Below, piece by piece: positions 1 to 26,442 of a stretch of DNA of 50,984 bases (positions are counted from its first letter, which is position 1; each line of letters begins with the position of its first letter). The DNA lies in the NCBI GenBank assembly GCA_026709935.1, contig JAPOSC010000025.1, positions 1 to 50,984 of the forward strand, in the 5' to 3' direction. The stretch comes from Thiotrichales bacterium. GTDB lineage: Bacteria; Pseudomonadota; Gammaproteobacteria; HK1. The position numbers were made by a program, and so were the translations under genes. The notes under the pieces were generated by a model that had not been told where the DNA came from, did not search any database, and was given only the letters and a program-made list of their open reading frames with translations.

Positions 1-231
1 GCGGGCTTCGGCGCGTATCGCTTCACGGTCGGCGCTGGCTTCAACCCGCATCGCCTGGCGGTCGGCACGAGCTCCGGCCCGATCAGCGCGCGCCTCGGCG
101 CGGACGGCCTGAATCTCGGTCCGGAGAGATTGAATCTCGCCGCGTACGCCGGTGATGGTGGTCAGGATCAGAGCGGCGACGGCGACAGTTGCGCCGATGA
201 TGGCGAGCGTTTCCTGGCTGAGTCTGGACAT
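1..231 (-). CDS. Membrane-anchored coiled-coil protein, copy 1 (partial, C-terminus off the window)
   Basis: 77 codons are visible, reading in frame to the window edge. The protein begins MSRLSQETLAIIG and has one hydrophobic segment (about residues 9-27). An Arg/Glu/Ala-rich region follows, built from units such as RAEARAD and RQAMRVEASAD. A short-tail topology is inferred: N-terminal membrane anchor and a long charged helix outside or inside the membrane. Compared with copy 2 it has an extra seven-residue unit (RAGARAD). The start was chosen by alignment with copies 2 and 3, since an upstream ATG is out of frame here. Function is unknown. Similar small anchor-plus-coil proteins exist in other bacteria, but I cannot name a characterised family. 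Confidence 0.7.
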   Translation of the reverse strand, partial: MSRLSQETLAIIGATVAVAALILTTITGVRGEIQSLRTEIQAVRAEARADRAGARADRQAMRVEASADREAIRAEAR

Positions 232-463
232 GCCGGAGCCGCCATAACGAGCGGTTGCGATTGGGTGAGACGTATCTTACCGCGCAGTCCACTGGCGGGA
301 ATCAGACAGGGTGCCGATGTCGTGCGGCCTGGGACGCTTTCCGTGTAGGCCGTCGTCTCGTTCGGTGTGCGACACAAGTGCCAAGCGGGTAACGCGCGGC
401 TATATCGCGGATGCGCCGAGGCCGACGGTTCGGCCGGGGCAGTGCATTCCGAGCCTCCGGGAA

Positions 464-814
464 TCACCCTCCGGCGGCAAGCTGGTCGCGGATGATTTCG
501 ATCTGTCCGCCGAGTTCGCCCTGTTGCTCGGTGAGCCGGAGGATCTGTTCCTGGAAGACCTGGCGGTCGGCGCGGGCCTCAGCGCGCATCGCTTCGCGGT
601 CAGCGCGGGCTTCGGCGCGTATCGCTTCGCGGTCGGCACTGGCTTCAGTCCGCATCGCCTGGCGGTCGGCGCGCGCCTCGGCGCGGACGGCCTGAATCTC
701 GGTACGGAGAGATTGAATCTCGCCGCGCACGCCGGTGATGCTGGTGAGGATCAGAGCGACGACGGCGATGGTGGCGCCGATGATGGCGAGCGTTTCCTGG
801 CTGAGTCTGGACAT
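464..814 (-). CDS. Membrane-anchored coiled-coil protein, copy 2 (116 aa)
   Basis: Complete member of the array. It has an N-terminal hydrophobic anchor (about residues 9-27), then a charged helix with three eleven-residue units in a row (RQAMRTEASAD, REAIRAEARAD, REAMRAEARAD). The C-terminal segment FQEQILRLTEQQGELGGQ is shared almost exactly with copy 3. Eleven-residue periodicity is typical of hendecad, slightly right-handed coiled coils. It differs from copy 3 mainly by two extra hendecads, so the copies seem to vary by gain or loss of 33-bp units. An upstream ATG is out of frame, which supports the MSRL start. Partner and role are unknown. Confidence 0.75.
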   Translation of the reverse strand: MSRLSQETLAIIGATIAVVALILTSITGVRGEIQSLRTEIQAVRAEARADRQAMRTEASADREAIRAEARADREAMRAEARADRQVFQEQILRLTEQQGELGGQIEIIRDQLAAGG

Positions 815-1048
815 GTCGGAGCCGCCATGACGAGCGGTTGCGATTGCACGGAGTGCATTCTACTGCGTTGTCCACTGGCGGGAATCTGACATGGTGCCGA
901 CATCGTGTGGATTCGGGACACCTTCCGTGTAGGCCCAGGTCTCGTTCAGTTTTTGGGAAGGTGGCGGACGCATAACGCGCGGCCGTACCGCGGGGATGCA
1001 CCGGGGCCGGCAGTCCGGCTGAAGCTCTGCGTCCCGAGCCTCCGGGAA

Positions 1049-1333
1049 TCACCCTCCGGCGGCAAGCTGGTCGCGGATGATTTCGATCTGTCCGCCGAGT
1101 TCGCCCTGTTGCTCGGTGAGCCGGAGGATCTGCTCCTGGAAGGCTTGGCGGTCAGCACGGGCCTCGGCCCGCATCGCTTGACGGACGGCCCGGGCTTCGG
1201 TTCGGACGTCCCGCAGTTCGTCACGGACAGCCCGGATCTCGCCGCGCACGCCGGCAATGCTGGTGAGGGTGAGCGCGGCCAAAGCGACGCCCACACCGAG
1301 AATAGCGAGAGTTTCCTGGCTGAGTCTGGACAT
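1049..1333 (-). CDS. Membrane-anchored coiled-coil protein, copy 3 (94 aa)
   Basis: Shortest complete copy. The N-terminal anchor (about residues 9-27) is followed by a charged helix with a single RQAMRAEARAD unit and the shared tail from FQEQILRLTEQ to the C-terminus. An in-frame ATG five codons upstream would add MAHPD, but the other two copies cannot use the equivalent codon, so the conserved MSRL start is preferred. The tail is nearly invariant between copies 2 and 3 while the middle varies. The tail is therefore the likelier functional or partner-binding part, which is inference. Confidence 0.75.
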   Translation of the reverse strand: MSRLSQETLAILGVGVALAALTLTSIAGVRGEIRAVRDELRDVRTEARAVRQAMRAEARADRQAFQEQILRLTEQQGELGGQIEIIRDQLAAGG

Positions 1334-1630
1334 GTCGGGGTGCGCCATGACGAGCGGTTGCGATTGGGCGAGGTGCATTCTACCGCGTTGTCTACCGGTG
1401 GGAATCAGACATAGCGCCGACATCGTGTGGATTCGGGGCACCTTTGGTGTAGGCCGAGGTCTCGCTCAGGGTGTGGACGCGGAGCTGTGGGCGGCGTTGC
1501 GTACCATTTCGAGTGGCAGCGGTGCGCACGTAGCGATTCGTCGGGTAAGACGGGAAGGCAGGTGGGTTCGGTGGCGAGGTGGGGAGGGCGATGGCGGGGA
1601 GTTGTACGGCTTCTGTGTTCGCGACGCACA

Positions 1631-1662
1631 AATAAAACGGGGCACCTCGTAGGGTGCCCCGT
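1631..1662 (-). terminator. Rho-independent terminator of the porin gene
   Basis: A perfect 10-bp stem (1637-1646 with 1653-1662, six-base loop) lies 43 bp downstream of the porin stop. On the minus strand it is followed directly by TTTTATTT. The plus strand lacks a T-run after the stem, so it acts for the minus-strand porin. Confidence 0.9.
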
Positions 1663-1704
1663 AATCACAAGCTCAGGTCTCTCGCGAAGAGAGCGATGCC
1701 ATCG

Positions 1705-2853
1705 TCAGAAGTCGACTTTTAGCACCAAACCCGACGTGTTATCCGTGAGTCGTGACTTGCTGGTCTCGTTGTACTCTTCTTTCACGCGATGCACCAAGTT
1801 GACCGTGACGGCCTTCGAGGCATAGTACGAATACCCCAAAGTCCAATAGTCAAGATCCCTTTCCTCGGCATATTTATCGGCAGAATCAAGTTGCCCGTAC
1901 TGCAGAAAGGCGTTCCCGCCGCCAGGTCCTTCACCCACCAGATAGCTCAGTCCGAATCCGTACCTGTCCTCGTCGCAGCTTTCCTTATCCATCCCTGGCG
2001 CGAGCCTAGTATATGGAGACGGTTCCCTCACATCGAGGACCACGGAATCTTCGGTTCCAGCCTTGCACGTAACGTCACTGGCAGACTCATACCCCACCTT
2101 CAGGGTAATATTTGCCGCACTGCCGCTCACCGTTCCTCCGATGCGTTCGCTACCGTCGTACTGTTCCATGTAACCACCGCCGAAGCTGACGGGTCCGGTG
2201 GCCAGTGTGCCGGAAACTTCTACATGATCCGCACCCTCTTTTTTGGCATCATCTCCAGCGAAAACCTTGAAGTCGAACGGTCCGCCGAGAGCGCTGGCGA
2301 AGCTCACGCCGTCGATCTTGTCGGGGACATCGGTAACGCCGCCGAGATGGGCAGCGTTGTCCCATGTCGTAGCGCCATAGTATCCCGAGGCATGCCGTCC
2401 AGCCGTAATTGTTCCGAAAGCGCCTGAAAGGGAGACGTTGTGGAACCTCTTGCCAAGGTCGTCGCCGATGCCTCTCTCGATCTGGAAGCCCGCCGTCAGG
2501 CCTGCCCCGGCGTCTACGGAACCCTTTATGCCGAATCGGCTGCCGTAGTTCGCACCGATCTCCCAACCGGTACTGGAGCCGGATACACCGTCGTCGGTCA
2601 TCGTTGCCCCATAACGAAGACTTCCGTAGACGGTCGCGCTGTGTCCGTGCAGCTCCGAGTGCGGGTGCGACTCGTGCTCATGGGCATGAGGCGGTGACAT
2701 CGAGCCGTCTCCCATTTCGTGCTCATGCTGGTACGTCGCCGAATGGGAGTGGGGCTCGACATTCATTTCGTCAGCCTGCACCTGAGCTGCCATCGGCAGA
2801 GCTACGGCACTCGACGCGACGATGCCGAGAAGTCGTCTGGTCATGCGTTTCAT
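1705..2853 (-). CDS. Gram-negative porin with histidine-rich N-terminal segment (382 aa)
   Basis: Outer-membrane beta-barrel porin of the OmpC/general porin type. A signal peptide (residues 1-27, ending near AAQVQA) is followed by a mature chain rich in alternating Gly/aromatic strands. The protein ends in phenylalanine (LKVDF), the usual C-terminal signal for barrel insertion. The start is set by AAGGAG seven bases upstream, and a strong terminator follows the gene. The unusual part is residues 35-71, where eleven His sit among Glu, Ser and Pro just before the first barrel strand (TVYGSLRYG). This segment could bind Zn, Cu or Ni at the cell surface or in the periplasm, by analogy with other His-rich loops. 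That is inference. Base composition is lower in GC than the neighbours. Confidence 0.85.
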   Translation of the reverse strand: MKRMTRRLLGIVASSAVALPMAAQVQADEMNVEPHSHSATYQHEHEMGDGSMSPPHAHEHESHPHSELHGHSATVYGSLRYGATMTDDGVSGSSTGWEIGANYGSRFGIKGSVDAGAGLTAGFQIERGIGDDLGKRFHNVSLSGAFGTITAGRHASGYYGATTWDNAAHLGGVTDVPDKIDGVSFASALGGPFDFKVFAGDDAKKEGADHVEVSGTLATGPVSFGGGYMEQYDGSERIGGTVSGSAANITLKVGYESASDVTCKAGTEDSVVLDVREPSPYTRLAPGMDKESCDEDRYGFGLSYLVGEGPGGGNAFLQYGQLDSADKYAEERDLDYWTLGYSYYASKAVTVNLVHRVKEEYNETSKSRLTDNTSGLVLKVDF

Positions 2854-3297: not shown

Positions 3298-4161
3298 ATG
3301 GCCTGGATCGGAAAACTCCTCGGTGGCGCCGTCGGCTTCGCGCTCGGCGGACCGCTCGGTGCGCTCGTGGGCGTCGCGCTCGGGCACAACATCGACCGCT
3401 CCTCCCGAGCGGCGCGTGGGCGCGGCTGGGCGGACTCCGATCTCCTCGGCGCCGACGATGCCGCGGACTTCTTCGGCGCCCCCGACCATCACCCGGACCC
3501 TCCCGAAACCCTCGACCCGCGCGAACGGACCCAGACCGCGTTCTTCACCGCCACGTTCGCGGTGATGGGCCATCTCGCGAAGGCGGACGGCCGTGTCACC
3601 CGTGACGAGATCCGGCTCGCGTCGCGGGTCATGGACGAGATGCGGCTCTCCGCCACCCACCGCCGGCTCGCTGAACGGCTCTTTCGTGAAGGGCGGTCCC
3701 CCGACTTCCCCGTCGGCGAAGTCCTCGACCAGTTCCGGCGCGAATGCCGCTACAGCACCCACCTCGTCACCATGTTCGTCGAGATCCTGCTCCACGCGGC
3801 GTATGCCGACGGCGCGTTGCACCCGGAGGAACGGGCACTGCTGGAGTCGGTCTGCGGGCGGCTGCGCCTGCCCGCCGGGGAGCTGGAGCGCCTGGAGTCC
3901 ATGGTGCGAGCGGAGCACCACGCCCGGAGCGGCAAGCCTTCGGACGCCCTCTCCGCCGCCGACGCCTGTGCCATCCTCGGCGTGGACGAGACCTGCTCGG
4001 ACGCGGAGCTGAAGCGCGCTTACCGCCGGATGATGAACCGGCACCACCCCGACAAGCTGGTGGCCAAGGGACTGCCCGAGGAAATGATGCAGGTCGCGAC
4101 CGAAAAGACGCGCGAGATCAAGGCCGCATACGATCGGCTCAAGGAAGTACGGGGACTCTGA
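3298..4161 (+). CDS. djlA: DjlA-like membrane-anchored J-domain co-chaperone (287 aa)
   Basis: Stimulates the ATPase of DnaK at the inner membrane. The chain shows the DjlA domain order. A Gly-rich hydrophobic segment lies at residues 5-30, a TerB-like helical domain at about 79-200, and a C-terminal J-domain at about 215-287 with the HPD motif at 250-252 (NRHHPDKL). Length is normal for the family. It lies 33 bp upstream of trpD on the same strand and may be cotranscribed with it, though no functional link to tryptophan synthesis is known. The start is the only ATG ahead of the membrane segment. Confidence 0.9.
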   Translation: MAWIGKLLGGAVGFALGGPLGALVGVALGHNIDRSSRAARGRGWADSDLLGADDAADFFGAPDHHPDPPETLDPRERTQTAFFTATFAVMGHLAKADGRVTRDEIRLASRVMDEMRLSATHRRLAERLFREGRSPDFPVGEVLDQFRRECRYSTHLVTMFVEILLHAAYADGALHPEERALLESVCGRLRLPAGELERLESMVRAEHHARSGKPSDALSAADACAILGVDETCSDAELKRAYRRMMNRHHPDKLVAKGLPEEMMQVATEKTREIKAAYDRLKEVRGL

Positions 4162-4194: not shown

Positions 4195-5208
4195 ATGGAC
4201 ATCCAATCGGCGATCCGCGCCGTCACCGAGCGGCGCGATCTCGACGGCGCGCAGATGGCGGGCGTCATGCATGCCATCATGACCGGCGAGTGCACGCCCG
4301 CGCAGGTCGGGGGGTTCCTGGTGGGCCTGCGCATGAAGGGCGAGACGGTCGAGGAGATCGCGGCCGCGGCGGCGGTGATGCGACGGCTCGCCACCCGGGT
4401 GGCGGTGGACACGACGCATCTTGTCGACACCTGCGGCACCGGCGGGGACGCGAGCGGCACCTTCAATATCTCCACCGCGAGCGCGCTGGTCGCGGCGGGG
4501 GCCGGGGTGCGGGTCGCGAAGCACGGCAACCGTTCGGTTTCCGGACGGTCCGGGAGCGCCGACGTGCTGGAGGCGGCCGGAGTCCGGCTCGACCTCTCCC
4601 CGGAGCGGGCGGCGCGCTGCATCGACGAGGCCGGCGTGGGGTTCCTGTTCGCACCCGCCCACCACGGGGCGATGAAGCACGCCATCGGCCCGCGCCGCGA
4701 GATGGCGGTGCGCACCATCTTCAACGTGCTCGGCCCCCTCACCAACCCGGCCGGAGCGCTTCGTCAGGTCATCGGGGTCTTCGAATCGGCCCTCGTCGAG
4801 CCACTCGCCCGCGTGCTCGGTGAGCTCGGCAGCGAGCACGTGATGGTGGCGCACTCCGAGGACGGGCTCGACGAGCTGAGCCTCGGTGCGCCGACCCGCG
4901 TGGCGGAGCTTCGCGACGGCGCGGTGCGCACGTTCACGCTCGATGCCCGCAATCTCGGGTTTGCCCGCGCCCCGATCGAGTCCATCGCCGTCGACTCGCC
5001 CGCCGCGAGCCTCGACGTGATCCGCGCGGTGCTGGCCGGCGAATCAGGACCGGCCGCGGACATCACCGTCCTCAATGCCGCCGCGGCCGTCTACGTGAGC
5101 GGCATCGCGTCGAGCCTGGAGGACGGGATCGAGCGCGCGCGGGAAAGCATCGATTCCGGCCGGGCCGCAGCCGCTCTGGAACGACTGGTGACCATCAGCA
5201 ATGGGTAG
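4195..5208 (+). CDS. trpD: Anthranilate phosphoribosyltransferase
   Basis: Joins anthranilate and PRPP to give phosphoribosylanthranilate, the second step of tryptophan synthesis from chorismate. The 337-aa length fits stand-alone TrpD. The PRPP-binding motif GTGGD is at residues 81-85 and the conserved KHGNRSVS at 109-116. The stop overlaps the start of trpC by 8 bp, so the two are translationally coupled. No trpG is seen upstream, unlike pseudomonads, where trpG-trpD-trpC are adjacent. Confidence 0.97.
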
Positions 5209-7317: not shown

Positions 7318-7593
7318 TCAGTCGACGGGCAGGTGCCGCTCCGGCTTCCCACCACACTGCGTCCAGATCATGCGCAGGGTGTCGTTTTGCCGACGGAGGA
7401 TCTCATCGTGTCTGCGCAGCGTTTCCTTATGCTCGTGCAGCATTTCCTTCTGCTCGCGCAGCATCTCGTCCTGCCTTGCGAGGCGCGGCTCCATCCGCTT
7501 CTCCGCTGCCTCGACTGACGCGTCGAAGCACTCCTGCAACGCCGCCGCGAGTCCCTGGATGGCGCGCGTGCGGCGCCCGTTCGTTTTGCCCAT
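7318..7593 (-). CDS. Small coiled-coil protein (91 aa)
   Basis: After an Arg-rich start (MGKTNGRRTRAIQ), almost the whole chain is a predicted helix with a repeated pattern, seen as MLREQKEMLHEHKETL, RRHDEILRRQ and NDTLRMIW. Units of about seven residues place Leu/Met at regular heptad positions, so a parallel coiled coil is likely. An earlier in-frame start (10 residues longer) lacks a ribosome-binding site, while GGGGGAACG precedes the chosen one. It lies upstream of, and on the same strand as, the two small membrane proteins. Function is unknown. Confidence 0.65.
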   Translation of the reverse strand: MGKTNGRRTRAIQGLAAALQECFDASVEAAEKRMEPRLARQDEMLREQKEMLHEHKETLRRHDEILRRQNDTLRMIWTQCGGKPERHLPVD

Positions 7594-8916: not shown

Positions 8917-9911
8917 CGCCGGGTTCCTCCGTCCAGCCGGATTCTCGGGTCGAGCGCCGCCAGGGCAAGGTCCGACAGGAACATCCCCACCACCGTGAGC
9001 ACCGCGAGGAACATGAGGAAGGAGCCGGCCAGATACATGTCCTGGCTCTGCAACGCCCGCACCAGCATCGGGCCGGTGGTGGGGAGCGAGAGCACCACCG
9101 AGACGATGGCGGCGCCGGAGACCACCTGCGGCAGCAGGTTGCCGATGTCCGCGATGAACGGGTTGAGCGACATCCGCAGCGGGTACTTCACCAGCAGCCG
9201 GAACGGCGGCAGCCCCTTGGCGCGACCGGTCACCACGTACTGCTTCTGCAACTCGTCCAGGAGGTTCGCGCGGAGCCTGCGGATCATCCCCGCGGTCCCT
9301 GCGGTCCCGATGACCACCACCGGGATCCACAGGTGCTCCAGCACGGAGACGAACTTCGGCCAGCTCATGGGTTGATCGACGAACTCGGGCTCCATCAACC
9401 CGCCGATGGAGGTGCCGAACACCACGTTCGCGAAGTAGAGCAGCACCAGCGCGAGGAGAAAGTTCGGGGTCGCGAGCCCCAGAAAGCCGATGAGCGTCAG
9501 GCCGTGGTCCCCCCAACTGTACTGGTGGGTGGCGGAGTACACCCCGATGGGGAACGAGACCACCCACGTGAAGATGATGGTCGAGAACGAGAGCAGAAAG
9601 GTCAGGAACAGCCGATCTCCCACCACCTCGTTCACCGGAAGGTCGTGTTCGAACGAGTAGCCGAAGTCTCCCTGGAGCATCCCCAGCACCCAGGTGGCGT
9701 ACTGCTCGACGACGGGGCGGTCGAGCCCGTAGTGGGCGCGCAGGAACTCGACCTTCTCCTGCGACACCTTCTCGCCGGTCGCCTCCAGCTCGGCGATGTA
9801 GGAGGTGAGGTAATCCCCCTCGGGGAGCTGGATGATGATGAACACCAGGGCACTGATGATCGCCAGGGTGGGGATCATCACGAAGAGGCGCCGGACGGTG
9901 TACTGGAGCAT
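8913..9911 (-). CDS. Oligopeptide-type ABC transporter permease, OppB-like (332 aa)
   Basis: First permease of the importer. It begins MLQYTVRRLFVMIPTL, the usual OppB/DppB opening with helix 1 at once. A periplasmic segment with HYGLDRPVVEQY follows, then five more helices. The cytoplasmic coupling loop (VVTGRAKGLPPFRLLVKY) should contact the ATPase. It begins 7 bp after the substrate-binding protein gene and overlaps the OppC-like gene by 4 bp. Length is normal. Confidence 0.9.
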   Translation of the reverse strand: MLQYTVRRLFVMIPTLAIISALVFIIIQLPEGDYLTSYIAELEATGEKVSQEKVEFLRAHYGLDRPVVEQYATWVLGMLQGDFGYSFEHDLPVNEVVGDRLFLTFLLSFSTIIFTWVVSFPIGVYSATHQYSWGDHGLTLIGFLGLATPNFLLALVLLYFANVVFGTSIGGLMEPEFVDQPMSWPKFVSVLEHLWIPVVVIGTAGTAGMIRRLRANLLDELQKQYVVTGRAKGLPPFRLLVKYPLRMSLNPFIADIGNLLPQVVSGAAIVSVVLSLPTTGPMLVRALQSQDMYLAGSFLMFLAVLTVVGMFLSDLALAALDPRIRLDGGTRR

Positions 9912-11871: not shown

Positions 11872-13763
<1,892 letters not shown>

Positions 13764-13767
<4 letters not shown>

Positions 13768-14264
13768 GTCCGGCCGCCCGGGCCGGGCTCGCCGGCCGTC
13801 ATCCCCAGGGCTTCGAGGTTCTTCAGGGTCGTGAGGTCGAGCTCCACTCCGCAATGCGACGCGGCGTGCCACGTGCGAGCGACCAGCTCGTCGAACCGCT
13901 CCAGCCTCGAGTCCACGCGAAGCGTCGCGGCAGGGCTTGCCACCTTGAGTTCCATCCAGCCACGGGCACCGTCGCGCCGGGTGGAGAAATAGGAGAGCCC
14001 GAACCGGGTGATCTCGTCCCAAGCGATGCGTCGGCGAGGCGGCGAGAAGCGCAGGCCCTCCTCGTCGGTCTCGACCCGGGTCCGTTGCCGGCGCATCACC
14101 CCGAGCCCGTGCATCGCGAAACAGGCGCTCAACAGGCCGAGGATCCAGACCGTGGGGGACGGCAGGTCGAACATCACGAGCGGCGGCGCCGTCAGGGCGA
14201 GCCCGCCCCCGGACACCAGGTAGTCCGAAGCCATTGCGGAGGGGGGATAGCGGTGTCGGGTCAT
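13764..14264 (-). CDS. Two-helix membrane protein with PH-like domain (166 aa)
   Basis: Two hydrophobic segments near the N-terminus (about residues 16-50) precede a soluble half. There, [17 protein letters not shown] and [11 protein letters not shown] resemble the beta-strand pattern of bacterial PH-like domains (YcxB type). The family call is tentative. It is the first gene of the peptide-transporter operon and its stop overlaps the GTG of the ATPase gene, so expression is coupled. A role in assembling or regulating the transporter is possible but unproven. Confidence 0.6.
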
Positions 14265-14421
14265 TTGGAGCGGGGGAAGGAGGACGCTGCGATGGTATCA
14301 GTCCAAGCATCGGATGATCTTCTGACGGATGATCCTCTTTCGGCGCCGTCGGCAGCCGATGACCCGAGGCAGGCGGCGCGGGCGACGCGCTCCGGCCTTC
14401 CACGGCTATCATCCGCCCTCC

Positions 14422-15621
14422 ATGACGACGGCTCCCCCACCCGCAGCCCGCGTTCGATTCCACTCGATCGTCTGGCCTCTCGCGATCGCGGAGACGATCG
14501 TGTGGGCCGCCATGTACTACAGCTTCCCGGCCCTGCTCTCGACCTGGGAGCGCGACCTCGGCTGGTCGAAGGCCGAACTCTCGTTCGCCTTCACCTGTGC
14601 GGTTCTGGTGTCCGCGTCGCTGGCGCCGGCGGCGGGGCGCCTGATCGACCGCGGTCTGGCCCGCGCCGTGTTCACTGGCGGCGCCGTGCTCGGCGCGGTG
14701 CTCCTGGCGCTGCTGTCCATGGTCACCGAGCCGTGGCAGTTCTTCTGCGTCTGGATCGGGCTCGGCGTCGCGATGTCCGGCACCCTCTACGAAGCGTGCT
14801 TCGCGGTGCTGGTCCGCTCGACCGGAGACCGGGCGCGGCGCGCGATCACCATCGTCACCGTCATCGCGGGGTTCGCGGGGACGGTGGCGTTTCCGAGCGC
14901 GCACCTGCTGGCCGGGGCGTTCGGCTGGCGGAGCGCGGTGCTGGTGTTCGCGGCGGTGGTCGGCGCGGTCGCAGCGCCGCTGGTATGGAGCGCATGCCGC
15001 CACGCCGAGGTCCAGGCCACCATGCACGCCCCGGAACCGAGCGCGAGCGCGGGCCAGGCGCTCGCGGTGGCGAGAAGCCCCATCTTCTGGCTGCTCGGGA
15101 GTGCGGTCTTCCTCGCCGCGCTGGACCACGGGATGCTCATCTCGCATGTGCTGCCGATCCTCGACGACCGCGGAATCGACGCCGGGCTCGCAGTGCTCGC
15201 GGCATCGTTCATCGGTCCCATGCAGGTCGCGGGGCGACTCGCGCTCATGGCCACGGATCGGTTCGCATCCATCGCCGCCGTGTCCGCCGGCTGCTTCGCG
15301 ATGATGGCGATGGCCGGGATCTGCCTGCTCCACGCCGGTACGGTGCCGGCGCTTCTCATCGGGTTCGTGGTGCTGCAGGGCGCGGGCATCGGCATCGCCG
15401 GCGTGATGCGCCCGGTGGTCACTGCGGAGCTGCTCGGCCGGAAGAACTTCGGGGTGATATCGGGGCTCGTGGGGCTCATGCACATGAGCGGCTATGCACT
15501 CGGGCCCTCGGTGGCGGCGATGGTATGGGCGGGGGGCGGATATGATCGGGTCATCGTTCTCGCCATCGGAGCCGCCTTCGTGGCGACGGCGGCGCTGCTC
15601 GCGGCCTGGAGTCGACGATGA
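14422..15621 (+). CDS. MFS transporter (399 aa)
   Basis: Major facilitator superfamily permease with about twelve hydrophobic helices in two halves. The loop between helices 2 and 3 carries the GRLIDRG form of the MFS A motif. The overall look (short N-terminus, WPLAIAETIVWAAMYYSFPALL) resembles MFS proteins of the monocarboxylate/oxalate-like branch. The substrate cannot be read from the sequence. It is divergent from the PH-like gene, so 14265-14421 must contain both promoters. It precedes the dienelactone hydrolase gene by 122 bp. Confidence 0.85.
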   Translation: MTTAPPPAARVRFHSIVWPLAIAETIVWAAMYYSFPALLSTWERDLGWSKAELSFAFTCAVLVSASLAPAAGRLIDRGLARAVFTGGAVLGAVLLALLSMVTEPWQFFCVWIGLGVAMSGTLYEACFAVLVRSTGDRARRAITIVTVIAGFAGTVAFPSAHLLAGAFGWRSAVLVFAAVVGAVAAPLVWSACRHAEVQATMHAPEPSASAGQALAVARSPIFWLLGSAVFLAALDHGMLISHVLPILDDRGIDAGLAVLAASFIGPMQVAGRLALMATDRFASIAAVSAGCFAMMAMAGICLLHAGTVPALLIGFVVLQGAGIGIAGVMRPVVTAELLGRKNFGVISGLVGLMHMSGYALGPSVAAMVWAGGGYDRVIVLAIGAAFVATAALLAAWSRR

Positions 15622-23036: not shown

Positions 23037-23110
23037 TGGGGGATCGTCTAATGGCAGGACAGCGGACTCTGACTCCGCCAGTCTAGGTTCGAATCCTAGT
23101 CCCCCAGCCA
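23037..23110 (+). tRNA. tRNA-Gln (anticodon CUG)
   Basis: Cloverleaf is clear. Acceptor stem TGGGGGA pairs with TCCCCCA, the anticodon stem GCGGA pairs with TCCGC around the loop CTCTGAC (anticodon CTG), and the T-arm contains GGTTCGAATCC. The CCA end is encoded (23108-23110). It begins only 13 bp after rpsI, so it is probably processed from the ribosomal protein transcript unless it has an unseen promoter. Confidence 0.95.
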
Positions 23111-23174
23111 ACCCCTCCGATCGAACCCCGATCAACCCCCCCAACCAACCCCTGACACCCCCCAGTCAATCCTT

Positions 23175-24035
23175 TCACTTTCGACCGCGCCGTCGCGACC
23201 TGCGGGCGCGTTCGGTCGCAGTCGGTGAAGGTGATGGTTCGCGCCGCGTCACCGCCAGGGTCGCGAAAATCGCACCCGCCGCGATCATCGGCAGCGTGAG
23301 CGCCTGACCCATGGTGACCCATCCGAAGGCGAGATATCCGAGATGCGCGTCGGGGACCCGCACGAACTCCACCAGGGTCCGTGCGACGCCGTAGCCGATC
23401 AGGAACACGCCCGAAGCCGCCATCGCCGGTCGCGGGCGCCGGGTGAACCACCACAGCACCGCGAACAGGACCAGCCCTTCGAGCAGCGCCTCGTAGAGCT
23501 GTGACGGGTGACGGGCCACGTCTCCGGCGCGGGGGTCCGGGAACACCATCGCCCACGGGAGGTCCGACGGCGTGCCCCACAGCCGACCGTTGATGAAGTT
23601 CCCGAACCGTCCCGCCGCGATACCGAGCGGCACCAGCGGGGCGATGAAGTCCGCGACGTCGAAGAACCCGCGGCCGCGTGAGCGGGCGAACCACCACATC
23701 GCGATCAGCACTCCGATCAAGCCGCCGTGAAAGGACATTCCTCCCTGCCATACCTTCACCAGCGACAGGGGATCGGCGAGGAGGCGCTCGAAGTCGTAGA
23801 AGAACATGTAGCCGAGCCGGCCACCCGCGATCACACCGAGCGCGACCCAGAAGAGCACGTCGCCCACGTCGTCGCGACTCCAGCCGCGCCAGGCGTCCCG
23901 GGCCCGCACCCGTCCGAGCCACCACCCGAGCGCGAACGCGATCAGGTACATCAGGCCGTACCAGTGGACCTTGACGGGTCCGATGGCGAAGGCCACGGGG
24001 TCGAAGTTCGGGTGCATCAGCATGGGCGCGATCAT
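23175..24035 (-). CDS. lgt: Phosphatidylglycerol-prolipoprotein diacylglyceryl transferase
   Basis: Inner-membrane enzyme that attaches diacylglycerol to the lipobox cysteine of lipoproteins. About seven membrane helices are visible. The key HGGLIG is at residues 103-108, and the Lgt signature [13 protein letters not shown] is at 142-154 with the essential Arg143. Length is normal, with a basic C-terminal tail ([12 protein letters not shown]). GGAG lies 9 bp before ATG 24035. The two lipoproteins near the right end of the window would be its substrates. Confidence 0.96.
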
Positions 24036-24146
24036 ATCCGACGACTCCGCTCCTTTCCGTCGTCATGGAGCCGGTGGTCGCCTCGCTCGGTGTTGCCCAT
24101 CGGACACCTCACCATCGAACGCATCACCACTGAATGTCTCGTCACC

Positions 24147-24224
24147 GGATGCCTCACCCCCCGGACGCCTCACCCCCCGGACGCCTCACCCCCCGGACGC
24201 CTCACGCGCTGAACGCCTCACCCC
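24147..24224. repeat. 16-bp tandem repeat, about five units
   Basis: GGACGCCTCACCCCCC is repeated head to tail at 24147, 24163, 24179, 24195 (diverged end) and 24211 (shortened). It lies in the lgt/DUF255 intergenic region (24036-24321), which is otherwise without genes. There are no spacers, so it is a simple minisatellite, not a CRISPR. Confidence 0.85.
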
Positions 24225-24321
24225 GGACGCCCATCCCCCGAACCCGGTGAAACTCCTGCACGCCACGGCCCGGGACGCTACGGGGCTATACTGCCGGCCC
24301 CTCCGCGGAGTAACCCGATCC

Positions 24322-26442
24322 ATGGCCGACCCCGCCCGCACCAATGCGCTCGCGAACGAGACCAGCCCGTACCTGCTGCAGCATGCGGACAACCCCGTCG
24401 ACTGGCAGCCGTGGGGCCTGGAGGCGCTCGACCGGGCCCGGCGCGAAGACCGACCGATCCTGCTCTCCATCGGCTATTCCGCCTGTCACTGGTGCCACGT
24501 CATGGCGCACGAATCGTTCGAGGACGAGGACACCGCGCGGCTGATGAACGACCTGTACGTCAACATCAAGGTCGATCGCGAGGAGCGGCCCGACATCGAC
24601 AAGATCTATCAGACCGCCCATCAGCTTCTCGCCCGGCGCCCCGGGGGGTGGCCGCTGACGGTCATGCTGACCCCCGACGACCACGCGCCCTTCTTCGCCG
24701 GCACCTACTTCCCCGATGCCCCGCGCCACGGCATGCCGTCGTTCCGCCAGGTGCTCACCGGAGTGGAGCGGTTCTACCGCGAGCGACGCGACGACGTGCG
24801 CAAGCAGAACGCATCGCTCATCAACGCGCTCGCGGGCCTCGACCCCGGTGTCGGCCCCGACGGCGCTGCGCCGACCCGGGCCGCGCTCGACGCCGCGCGC
24901 ACGGCGCTCATGCAGTCGTACGACGCGCGGGACGGCGGCTTCGGCGACGCGCCGAAGTTCCCGCATCCGACGAGCCTGGAACGACTGATGCGCGATCATG
25001 CGGCGCGTCCGACGAGTGCGGATGGCACCACCGGGCTCGCCGCCGCCACGTTCACCTTCCGCAAGATGGGCGGCGGCGGACTGTACGACCATGTCGGCGG
25101 CGGGTTCTGCCGCTACTCGGTGGACGCCGAGTGGATGATCCCCCACTTCGAGAAGATGCTCTACGACAACGGCCCGCTGCTCGCGGTGGCGGCGGAACTG
25201 CACCAGATCTCCGGCGACCCCGCGTTCGCCCGCATCGCCCGCGAGACCGCGGTCTGGGTCATGCGCGAGATGCAGTCGCCCGAAGGCGGGTACTACTCCA
25301 CCCTGGACGCCGACTCCGAGGGCGAGGAAGGGAAGTTCTACGTCTGGACCCCCGACGAGGTGCGCGGCCTCGTCCCGGAGGACGAATACGTTGCGCTCGC
25401 GTCCAGGTTCGGGCTCGACCGCCCGCCCAACTTCGAAGGCTCGCACTGGCACCTGCACGCATTTCGCGAGGTCTCCGACGTGGCGCGCGACGTCGGCGCC
25501 TCGGAGCGCGAAACCGCGGAGCGAATCGACCGCGCCCTCGCCACGCTCTTCGAGGCCCGATCCCACCGCATCCGGCCGGGGCGGGACGAGAAGGTCATCA
25601 CCTCGTGGAATGGGTTGATGATCAAGGGGATGGCGACGGCCGGGCGCATTCTCGGCGCGCCGGAGATCGTCGCGTCGGCGGAGCGCGCGGTGGAGTTCAT
25701 CCGCACCTCGATGTGGCGCGACGGCCGGCTGCACGCCACGTACAAGGACGGCCGGGCGCGGTTCAACGGCTATCTCGACGACTACGCCTGCCTCGCCGAC
25801 GGGCTCCTCGCGCTGCTCGCATCGCGGTGGTCCACCCGCGACCTCGAATTCGCCGTCGCCCTGGCGGACGCGATGCTGGAGCATTTCGAGGACCGCGAGC
25901 ACGGCGGCTTCTTCTTCACCGCCAACGACCATGAGCGTCTCATCCACCGCCCCAAGCCGATGACCGACGATTCGATCCCGTCCGGCAACGGCGTCGCGGC
26001 AACGGTACTCGGCCGACTCGGCCACCTGCTCGGCGAGACCCGATATCTGCGCGCGGCGGAGCGTGTGCTGCACGTCGCCCGGGAGGGGCTCGAACGGTTC
26101 CCGCACGCGCATACCGCCCTGCTCGTCGCGCTGGAGGAGCATCTCGAACCACCCGAGATCGTGATCATCCGGGCCGAGCCGGACGCGCTCGAATCCTGGC
26201 GGGCCCGGGCGAACGCCGGCTACGCCCCGCGCCGGGTCGTCATGGCCATCCCGAACGATGCGACCGATCTGCCGGCTCTGCTCGCGGAACGGGTGCCGCG
26301 CGGTGCCCCGGTGGCCTACGTCTGCGAAGGGCACGTCTGCGACGCGCCTATGACGGAGTTCGCTGCCTTCCACGCCCGTCTCGCCACGCGCGAGGTTGCG
26401 CCGCAGTTGCCGGCCCAGTCGTCGGCCCAAACATCGACCTGA
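24322..26442 (+). CDS. DUF255 thioredoxin-domain protein (YyaL/SPATA20 type, 706 aa)
   Basis: The opening [21 protein letters not shown] is diagnostic of the family. A thioredoxin-like domain follows, with CHWC at residues 55-58 (SACHWCHVM) in place of CxxC of thioredoxin. Next comes a long alpha/alpha-barrel part resembling glycoside hydrolase or N-acylglucosamine epimerase folds, with [13 protein letters not shown]. Cellular role is not established in bacteria. Length agrees with the family. The ATG at 24322 was chosen because longer reading would translate the tandem repeat upstream. Confidence 0.92.

Follow-up and report, generated by a model that had tools for sequence, protein, structure and literature searches.

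Tandem genes for membrane-anchored coiled-coil proteins of graded length in a Thiotrichales bacterium

Introduction

The stalks of trimeric autotransporter adhesins are coiled coils of varying repeat number. Deletions and lengthening of the ATP synthase stalk were reportedly the subject of work by Sorgen in 1998 and 1999, and one paper is said to deal with hendecad coils that cross membranes. In one article, the b subunit of ATP synthase is described as a transmembrane (TM)-anchored helix with a hendecad coil (PMC6131620). For Lpp of E. coli, another reports that the addition of 21 residues (three heptads) stretched the periplasm by about 3–4 nm, and suggests that the long form tilts (PMC8824477).

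The proteins of the array described here can be set beside these systems by analogy: Lpp is the nearest functional analogue and the ATP synthase b subunit the nearest anatomical one. Like the Lpp/OprI proteins, the array proteins would be small helical envelope rods; unlike them, they have a TM anchor, combine hendecads with heptads and occur natively as tandem copies of differing length. Like the b subunit, they have a hendecad coil that comes after a TM helix (hydrophobic residues ~8–27, then 11-residue units), but they have a C-terminal module of their own and tandem paralogues of many lengths. FtsB and DivIC are likewise short bitopic proteins with one TM helix and a coil, whereas the array proteins have a variable coil and are encoded in a tandem array. 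They are also far shorter than trimeric autotransporter adhesins.

Results

Layout of the locus

The window, that is, the whole stretch of DNA analysed (50,984 bp), comprises contig C15 of a 3.78 Mb genome assembled in 88 contigs (G000). Its left end cuts into an array of coil genes, with the contig edge inside copy C (Table 1). Contig C35 opens with the same 55 bases as the window, on the opposite strand, and a search of the genome found this sequence only at the ends of these two contigs, which fits a k-mer assembly break. Contig C35 contributes copies D and E, in the same direction as A to C, and the convergent copies F to J. The locus thus holds ten copies in two convergent sets of five, all open through to the common C-terminus. 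The original prediction had counted three tandem copies; the tandem arrangement was borne out, and the leftward count across the 55-bp overlap raised the number to ten. The full length of copy C depends on this contig join. The break itself sits inside the coil of copy C (window 1–55), and a unit-number polymorphism in the population could cause such a break.

A Porin_4 gene precedes each five-copy set on that set's own strand. The porin gene in the window encodes a long His-rich stretch near the N-terminus of its product, which may bind metal. Copies E and F are separated by 2082 bp, between which lie a fragment that we take to be Rpn-like (no Pfam match) and a nucleotidyltransferase gene. 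Of the two further genes listed as synteny markers, the one at 4195..5208 is presumably trpD, and the gene after it presumably trpC.

Table 1. Features of the coil-gene array and its surroundings
Feature	Position	Strand	Details
Copy C	1..231	-	first 77 codons; 123 aa across the 55-bp join; copy 1 of the original prediction
Repeated spacer B-C	232..463	-	232 bp; leader of C, TAAGAT at 279-274
Copy B	464..814	-	116 aa; copy 2 of the original prediction
Copy B, TM anchor	814-728		
Copy B, coil	727-581		
Copy B, C-terminal module	580-467		
Repeated spacer A-B	815..1048	-	234 bp; leader of B, TAGAAT at 862-857
Copy A	1049..1333	-	94 aa; copy 3 of the original prediction
Copy A, TM anchor	1333-1247		
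Copy A, coil	1246-1166		
Copy A, C-terminal module	1165-1052		
Promoter-like site of copy A	1377..1404	-	TTCCCA-16-TAGAAT; 1 found vs 0.3 expected by chance
Terminator-like hairpin	1637..1662	-	between porin gene and copy A; 1 found vs 1.0 expected by chance
Porin gene	1705..2853	-	Porin_4, 382 aa; upstream of the array, same strand
TerB + DnaJ domain gene (djlA-like)	3298..4161	+	locus synteny marker
Synteny marker gene	4195..5208	+	matches beside coil genes in G003 and G004; at coil-less site in G002
Rpn-like fragment (presumed)	L025:1271-1729 (contig C35)		between the arms; its start coincides with the stop codon of E
AbiEii/DUF6036 nucleotidyltransferase gene	L025:2254-3258 (contig C35)		between the two convergent arms, after the Rpn-like fragment
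Second tandem array, own genome	G000:C5:42900-43900 (L161, same three genes as L026)		three diverged members; offsets 11, 7, 37

The eight within-arm spacers measure 221, 228, 231, 232, 233, 234, 234, and 238 bp, with differences from 1 bp up. As originally predicted, the spacers upstream of the genes are themselves repeated; those in the window fall in the repeat families D1, D2, D3, and D5. A leader block, GTAGAATGCAC..TCG.GCAATCGCAACCGCTCGTCATGGC or a near variant, lies upstream of all ten copies, with TAAGAT instead of TAGAAT in the leaders of C, D, and E. In a related genome (G003), a similar leader precedes two of five coil genes (L063:15443 and 5688) and was not seen before the other three; in another (G004), part of it precedes one of two genes (L053:8361) and none was seen before the second. 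A promoter scan of window positions 1–1800 flagged copy A alone, leaving copies B and C unflagged. Each copy is probably transcribed separately, with the leader as its promoter.

Protein anatomy and coil lengths

The membrane anchor and C-terminal segment that had been noted as shared are present in all ten copies. Each protein starts with MSR-SQETLA and a hydrophobic stretch (about residues 8–27), followed by the coil and a 38-residue C-terminal module (EARADRQ..FQEQILRLTEQQG.L.GQIE.IRDQLAAGG). Copy B was modelled by AlphaFold2, as a single chain and from an alignment of 15 sequences, as one continuous helix over residues 2–115 (mean pLDDT 90.9, pTM 0.50). The hydrophobic periodicity of the coil is weak (peak power 0.07–0.12 at 3.57–3.84 in copies B, C, and I) and did not distinguish heptads from hendecads in these three real coils. 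Charges flanking the TM helix are near neutral on both sides in most members. By charge, only L060 is clearly of N-in orientation (net +3 before the helix, -1 after), and Arg/Lys are usually more numerous in the C-terminal than in the N-terminal flank.

The ten copies have ten different lengths: 69, 80, 83, 87, 94, 98, 101, 105, 116, and 123 aa, with 94 to 123 aa in the first arm and 69 to 98 aa in the second. Their offsets from the shortest copy (0, 11, 14, 18, 25, 29, 32, 36, 47, and 54) can each be written as 7a + 11b. That all nine nonzero offsets fall on this lattice has a Monte Carlo P of 0.00036 (random offsets in the same range, background 46%), a statistic that treats the copies as trials, related sequences as they are and not independent. 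When all unit pairs from 4 to 15 are compared, every offset is covered by 7/11 and by the less strict 4/7, and by no other pair. Beyond the shortest copy, A contains two heptads and one hendecad, B two and three, and C, read across the contig join, three and three. This agrees with the earlier counts of one hendecad in A, three in B, and an added seven-residue unit in C. Seven and eleven residues make about two and three helical turns, so steps of these sizes nearly preserve the helical face. With a rotation of 100 degrees for each residue, all nine offsets deviate from the shortest copy by no more than 40 degrees (background 28%).

Purifying selection on the C-terminus is strong: across the 45 pairs of copies, mean pN divided by mean pS gives 0.06 in the C-terminal module and 0.33 in the first 29 residues. 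Every gap in the 45 pairwise alignments is a multiple of 3, while spacer lengths differ by as little as 1 bp. Low pN/pS together with gaps in threes thus indicates kept proteins and not degenerate repeats.

Close pairs differ by a single block, of 33 bp in H-J and F-I and of 21 bp in B-C. Copy B carries a 33-bp tandem repeat at 563–685 (3.7 copies, 77% match between units). The original prediction of duplication with coil change by 33-bp units therefore stands, with the addition that 21-bp units change as well. By their N-termini, the copies A, F, G, and I form one group and B, C, D, H, and J another, with E in between. The N-terminus of copy A is 0.91 similar to that of I and 0.78 to that of B, and the values for the C-terminus are 0.91 and 0.96. 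Distance matrices of the two ends were uncorrelated (Mantel r = -0.04, p = 0.59; with ten sequences a weak test). Because the copies fall into different groups by their N-terminal and by their C-terminal parts, the paralogues probably recombine in the coil, which would be the simplest reading of the mosaic. Intragenic slippage, seen as ongoing in the original prediction, may be a source of length change, but the units inside copy B agree at only 77%, and the mosaic pattern points no less to paralogues recombining with one another.

Relatives in other genomes

An alignment-profile search at E ≤ 1e-10 found matches in 5 of 17 genomes of the taxonomic family, namely the own genome, three of the four others in the genus, and one from a further genus. 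Records for three of the matching genomes, all uncultured gammaproteobacterial MAGs, are OY282353.1, OY282378.1, and JAJDUQ. G001, from the same genus, had no member at E ≤ 1e-3, and looser limits added one more genus of the family (G015, E = 1.7e-5). In the wider class, where no more than 13 candidates were scored in any one genome, the own genome was the sole match among 369 at E ≤ 1e-10; with the second subfamily included, the class search matched 2 of 274 genomes. Copy B had no tblastn match at E ≤ 1e-3 in phage and plasmid collections, and 25 pattern matches in viral contigs included no relative.

In total, 33 open frames were found. Of these, 19 were measured at first, and L054 and L058, which lack the second anchor, were set aside to leave 17, three of which come from the second array in the own genome (Table 1). 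The 14 frames outside the first 19 comprised three in L069, measured later with their own anchors; L067 and L068, also measured later; L057, L062, and L064, which were scanned and had no anchor pair; and L027, L053:12214-12801, L063:12305-12580 (without the C-terminal module), L063:2397-3650, L063:8078-8566, and L066, which were left out of measurement. Six stretches were added: L156 and L157 were measured, L158 was measured by means of a less strict anchor picked by eye, L159 and L160 had no anchor pair, and L161 proved to hold the same three genes as L026.

Of the measurable relatives, 21 of 22 lie on the lattice, two of them being uninformative. In the first set the count is 16 of 17 with the same zero, the exception being L026:5507-5830 (offset 37). 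In the later set it is five of five, two of which have offsets over 59, a range in which any number lies on the lattice. The helical phase stays within 40 degrees in 16 of 17 relatives of the first set and in three of five of the later one. G006, from another genus, has three tandem genes of a separate subfamily with the repeat letters ELRTEVRADVA (offsets 0, 18, and 22); diverged subfamilies with other repeat letters stay on the lattice. The sets of lengths vary from genome to genome.

Coil genes lie near a common TerB/DnaJ-trpD neighbourhood in three species. In G003, one coil gene stands directly before the TerB/DnaJ gene, and a cluster comprises two porin matches, an integrase, four more coil genes, and a further one that lacks the C-terminal module. 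The integrase is of the phage type (L063:9149-10747) and lies between two similar porin genes. G004 has two coil genes in this neighbourhood, with no porin match in 16 kb around the pair, and the search found no coil gene at the TerB/DnaJ neighbourhood of G002.

The coil genes L055 of G004 (102 aa) and L059 of G002 (95 aa) have colinear flanks on both sides and are, judged by this synteny, a securely orthologous pair, with a 7-residue difference. With one flank aligned, L056 and L061 (88 and 95 aa) also differ by 7 aa, and L054 and L058 share a length of 109 aa. Between species, then, both the number of units and the number of copies change, though not everywhere. With ten copies at the locus and L055 and L059 differing in length between species, the findings run opposite to the equal unit numbers and lack of further copies that the original prediction had named as counting against it. 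Window positions 23061–26375 correspond to DNA of one side of the L055/L059 site; no coil gene was matched there and the other side was not found, and the stretch is possibly an empty coil-gene site.

A second coiled-coil family was seen at window positions 7318–7593 (-) and in L063 at 8927–9127 (+), 13622–14035 (-), and 13993–14502 (-). Its members have similar ends, NGR....LAAAL.ECF and TLRMIW.QCGG...LP.D, and differ greatly in the length of the middle part, from 66 aa up to 169 aa at the most (the starts are not settled). It has matches in G000, G003, and G006, in all three of which the first family is present.

Comparison with known families

Searches of Pfam, NCBIfam, and PHROGs returned nothing beyond weak coiled-coil cross-matches, below the cut-off where bits and cut-off were given, and no family in them fits. 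The two matches among solved structures had E-values of 0.48 and 0.57, and a literature search of titles and abstract openings found no description of the coil family. The family is best explained, on this sequence evidence, as one of lineage-specific, small single-pass membrane proteins.

Membership in the Lpp/OprI alanine-zipper lipoproteins (NF040598, Ala_zip_lipo) was rejected at 16.4 bits for copy B against a cut-off of 43, and a single one of the 22 members appeared at E ≤ 0.01. Cysteine is absent from all ten translated copies, so they have no lipobox. The F-type ATP synthase b subunit (NF011041) scored 20.5 bits with copy B against a cut-off of 200; five of 22 members matched at E ≤ 0.01 (best 3.8e-5), and there was no ATP synthase match among the neighbour genes scanned. 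Against Pfam DivIC (cut-off 28.9), the part of copy C inside the window scored 14.3 bits, and one other member of 22 reached E = 0.0008. Membership among the trimeric autotransporter adhesins was rejected. No membrane-barrel anchor was found in Pfam at E ≤ 1 for copies A, B, and the window part of C, nor among the eight Pfam families listed for the 22 members at E ≤ 0.01.

Discussion

The best candidate function for these proteins, unproven as it is, appears to be that of a graded spacer. We give an even chance to the proposal that they are TM-anchored coiled-coil rods with a conserved head, graded length and unit-wise recombination, serving as spacers or tethers. A short N-terminus and one TM helix would run on as a single long coiled-coil rod that ends in the 38-residue module, and the proteins may oligomerise through the coil. 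Heptad and hendecad quanta would hold the module on nearly the same helix face relative to the anchor, and the C-terminal head would stand at graded distances from the inner membrane, about 6.3 to 14.4 nm if the rods are straight. The rods would most likely be periplasmic, and gene duplication with recombination between 33-bp and 21-bp units would generate new lengths with the coil unbroken. The ruler role that had been suggested, or a spacer role, would fit this anatomy. A more specific version we consider unlikely, though worth stating: the rods would be a calibrated set, about ten of them presenting one identical head at about ten distances from 6 to 14 nm on a constant helical face, and through recombination of 21-bp and 33-bp modules the lineage could rapidly adjust the set, for instance to envelope width or to where outer-membrane partners such as the neighbouring porins are placed.

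The main rival to the graded spacer is neutral drift among in-phase lengths, where only an in-phase coil with intact ends is needed, the number of units is irrelevant, and the lattice reflects the repeat units; indeed, a coil that arose from repeats could by itself produce the lattice, with no selection for length. We regard this as possible, with rather less than half the weight of belief on its side. It is in keeping with close pairs that differ by exactly one repeat unit, with length sets that vary among genomes, and with the 7-aa difference between the orthologues L055 and L059. Moreover, coil length shows no relation to sequence distance at the N-terminus (Mantel r -0.04) or at the C-terminus (-0.20) and follows array position (r = 0.36, p = 0.027); neighbouring copies are more alike in length, and part of the ladder may therefore be plain descent. 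Drift fits less well with ten copies in one genome that are all open and all unequal in length, with the lattice retained in diverged subfamilies of other repeat letters, and with the 109 aa kept by L054 and L058 in both species. The opposite topology, in which the N-terminus lies outside and the coil and C-terminal module form cytoplasmic scaffolds that organise partners at the inner membrane, seems improbable to us. The nearly balanced flanking charges and the C-terminal flank usually richer in Arg/Lys would allow it, but a short N-terminus is typical of N-in signal anchors, L060 is charged accordingly, and porin genes adjoin the coil genes in two species.

Two further readings strike us as very improbable, each to a similar degree. 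The original prediction had raised an adhesion-range tuner, and a surface adhesin or variable antigen with its reach set by coil length would have a precedent in the repeat-number changes of autotransporter stalks; however, the scanned proteins, of only 69–123 aa, have no outer-membrane anchor and no adhesin or head domain, and their ends are conserved, not variable, so the adhesion part of the prediction finds no support. The other reading is a mobile gene-cassette array, in which leader and coil gene would spread together as a cassette and coil variation would be a side effect. Unit-like repeats with near-constant spacers, the integrase inside the G003 cluster, and the AbiEii/DUF6036 gene between the arms are compatible with such mobility. 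Against it, the window spacers have no inverted repeat of at least 20 nt (the arms of integron attC sites are shorter than 20 nt), the phage, plasmid, and viral collections yielded no relatives by tblastn or pattern scan, and the coil genes keep near one TerB/DnaJ-trpD neighbourhood in three species.

The array appears to be a natural counterpart of an engineered length series, within one genome, with two unit sizes and constant ends. If the lengths are used, it could serve as a natural ladder in studies of what sets envelope distances. Should they go unused, it still shows which coil insertions and deletions are tolerated in evolution: nearly all are sums of 7 and 11 residues, most of them preserving the helical face.
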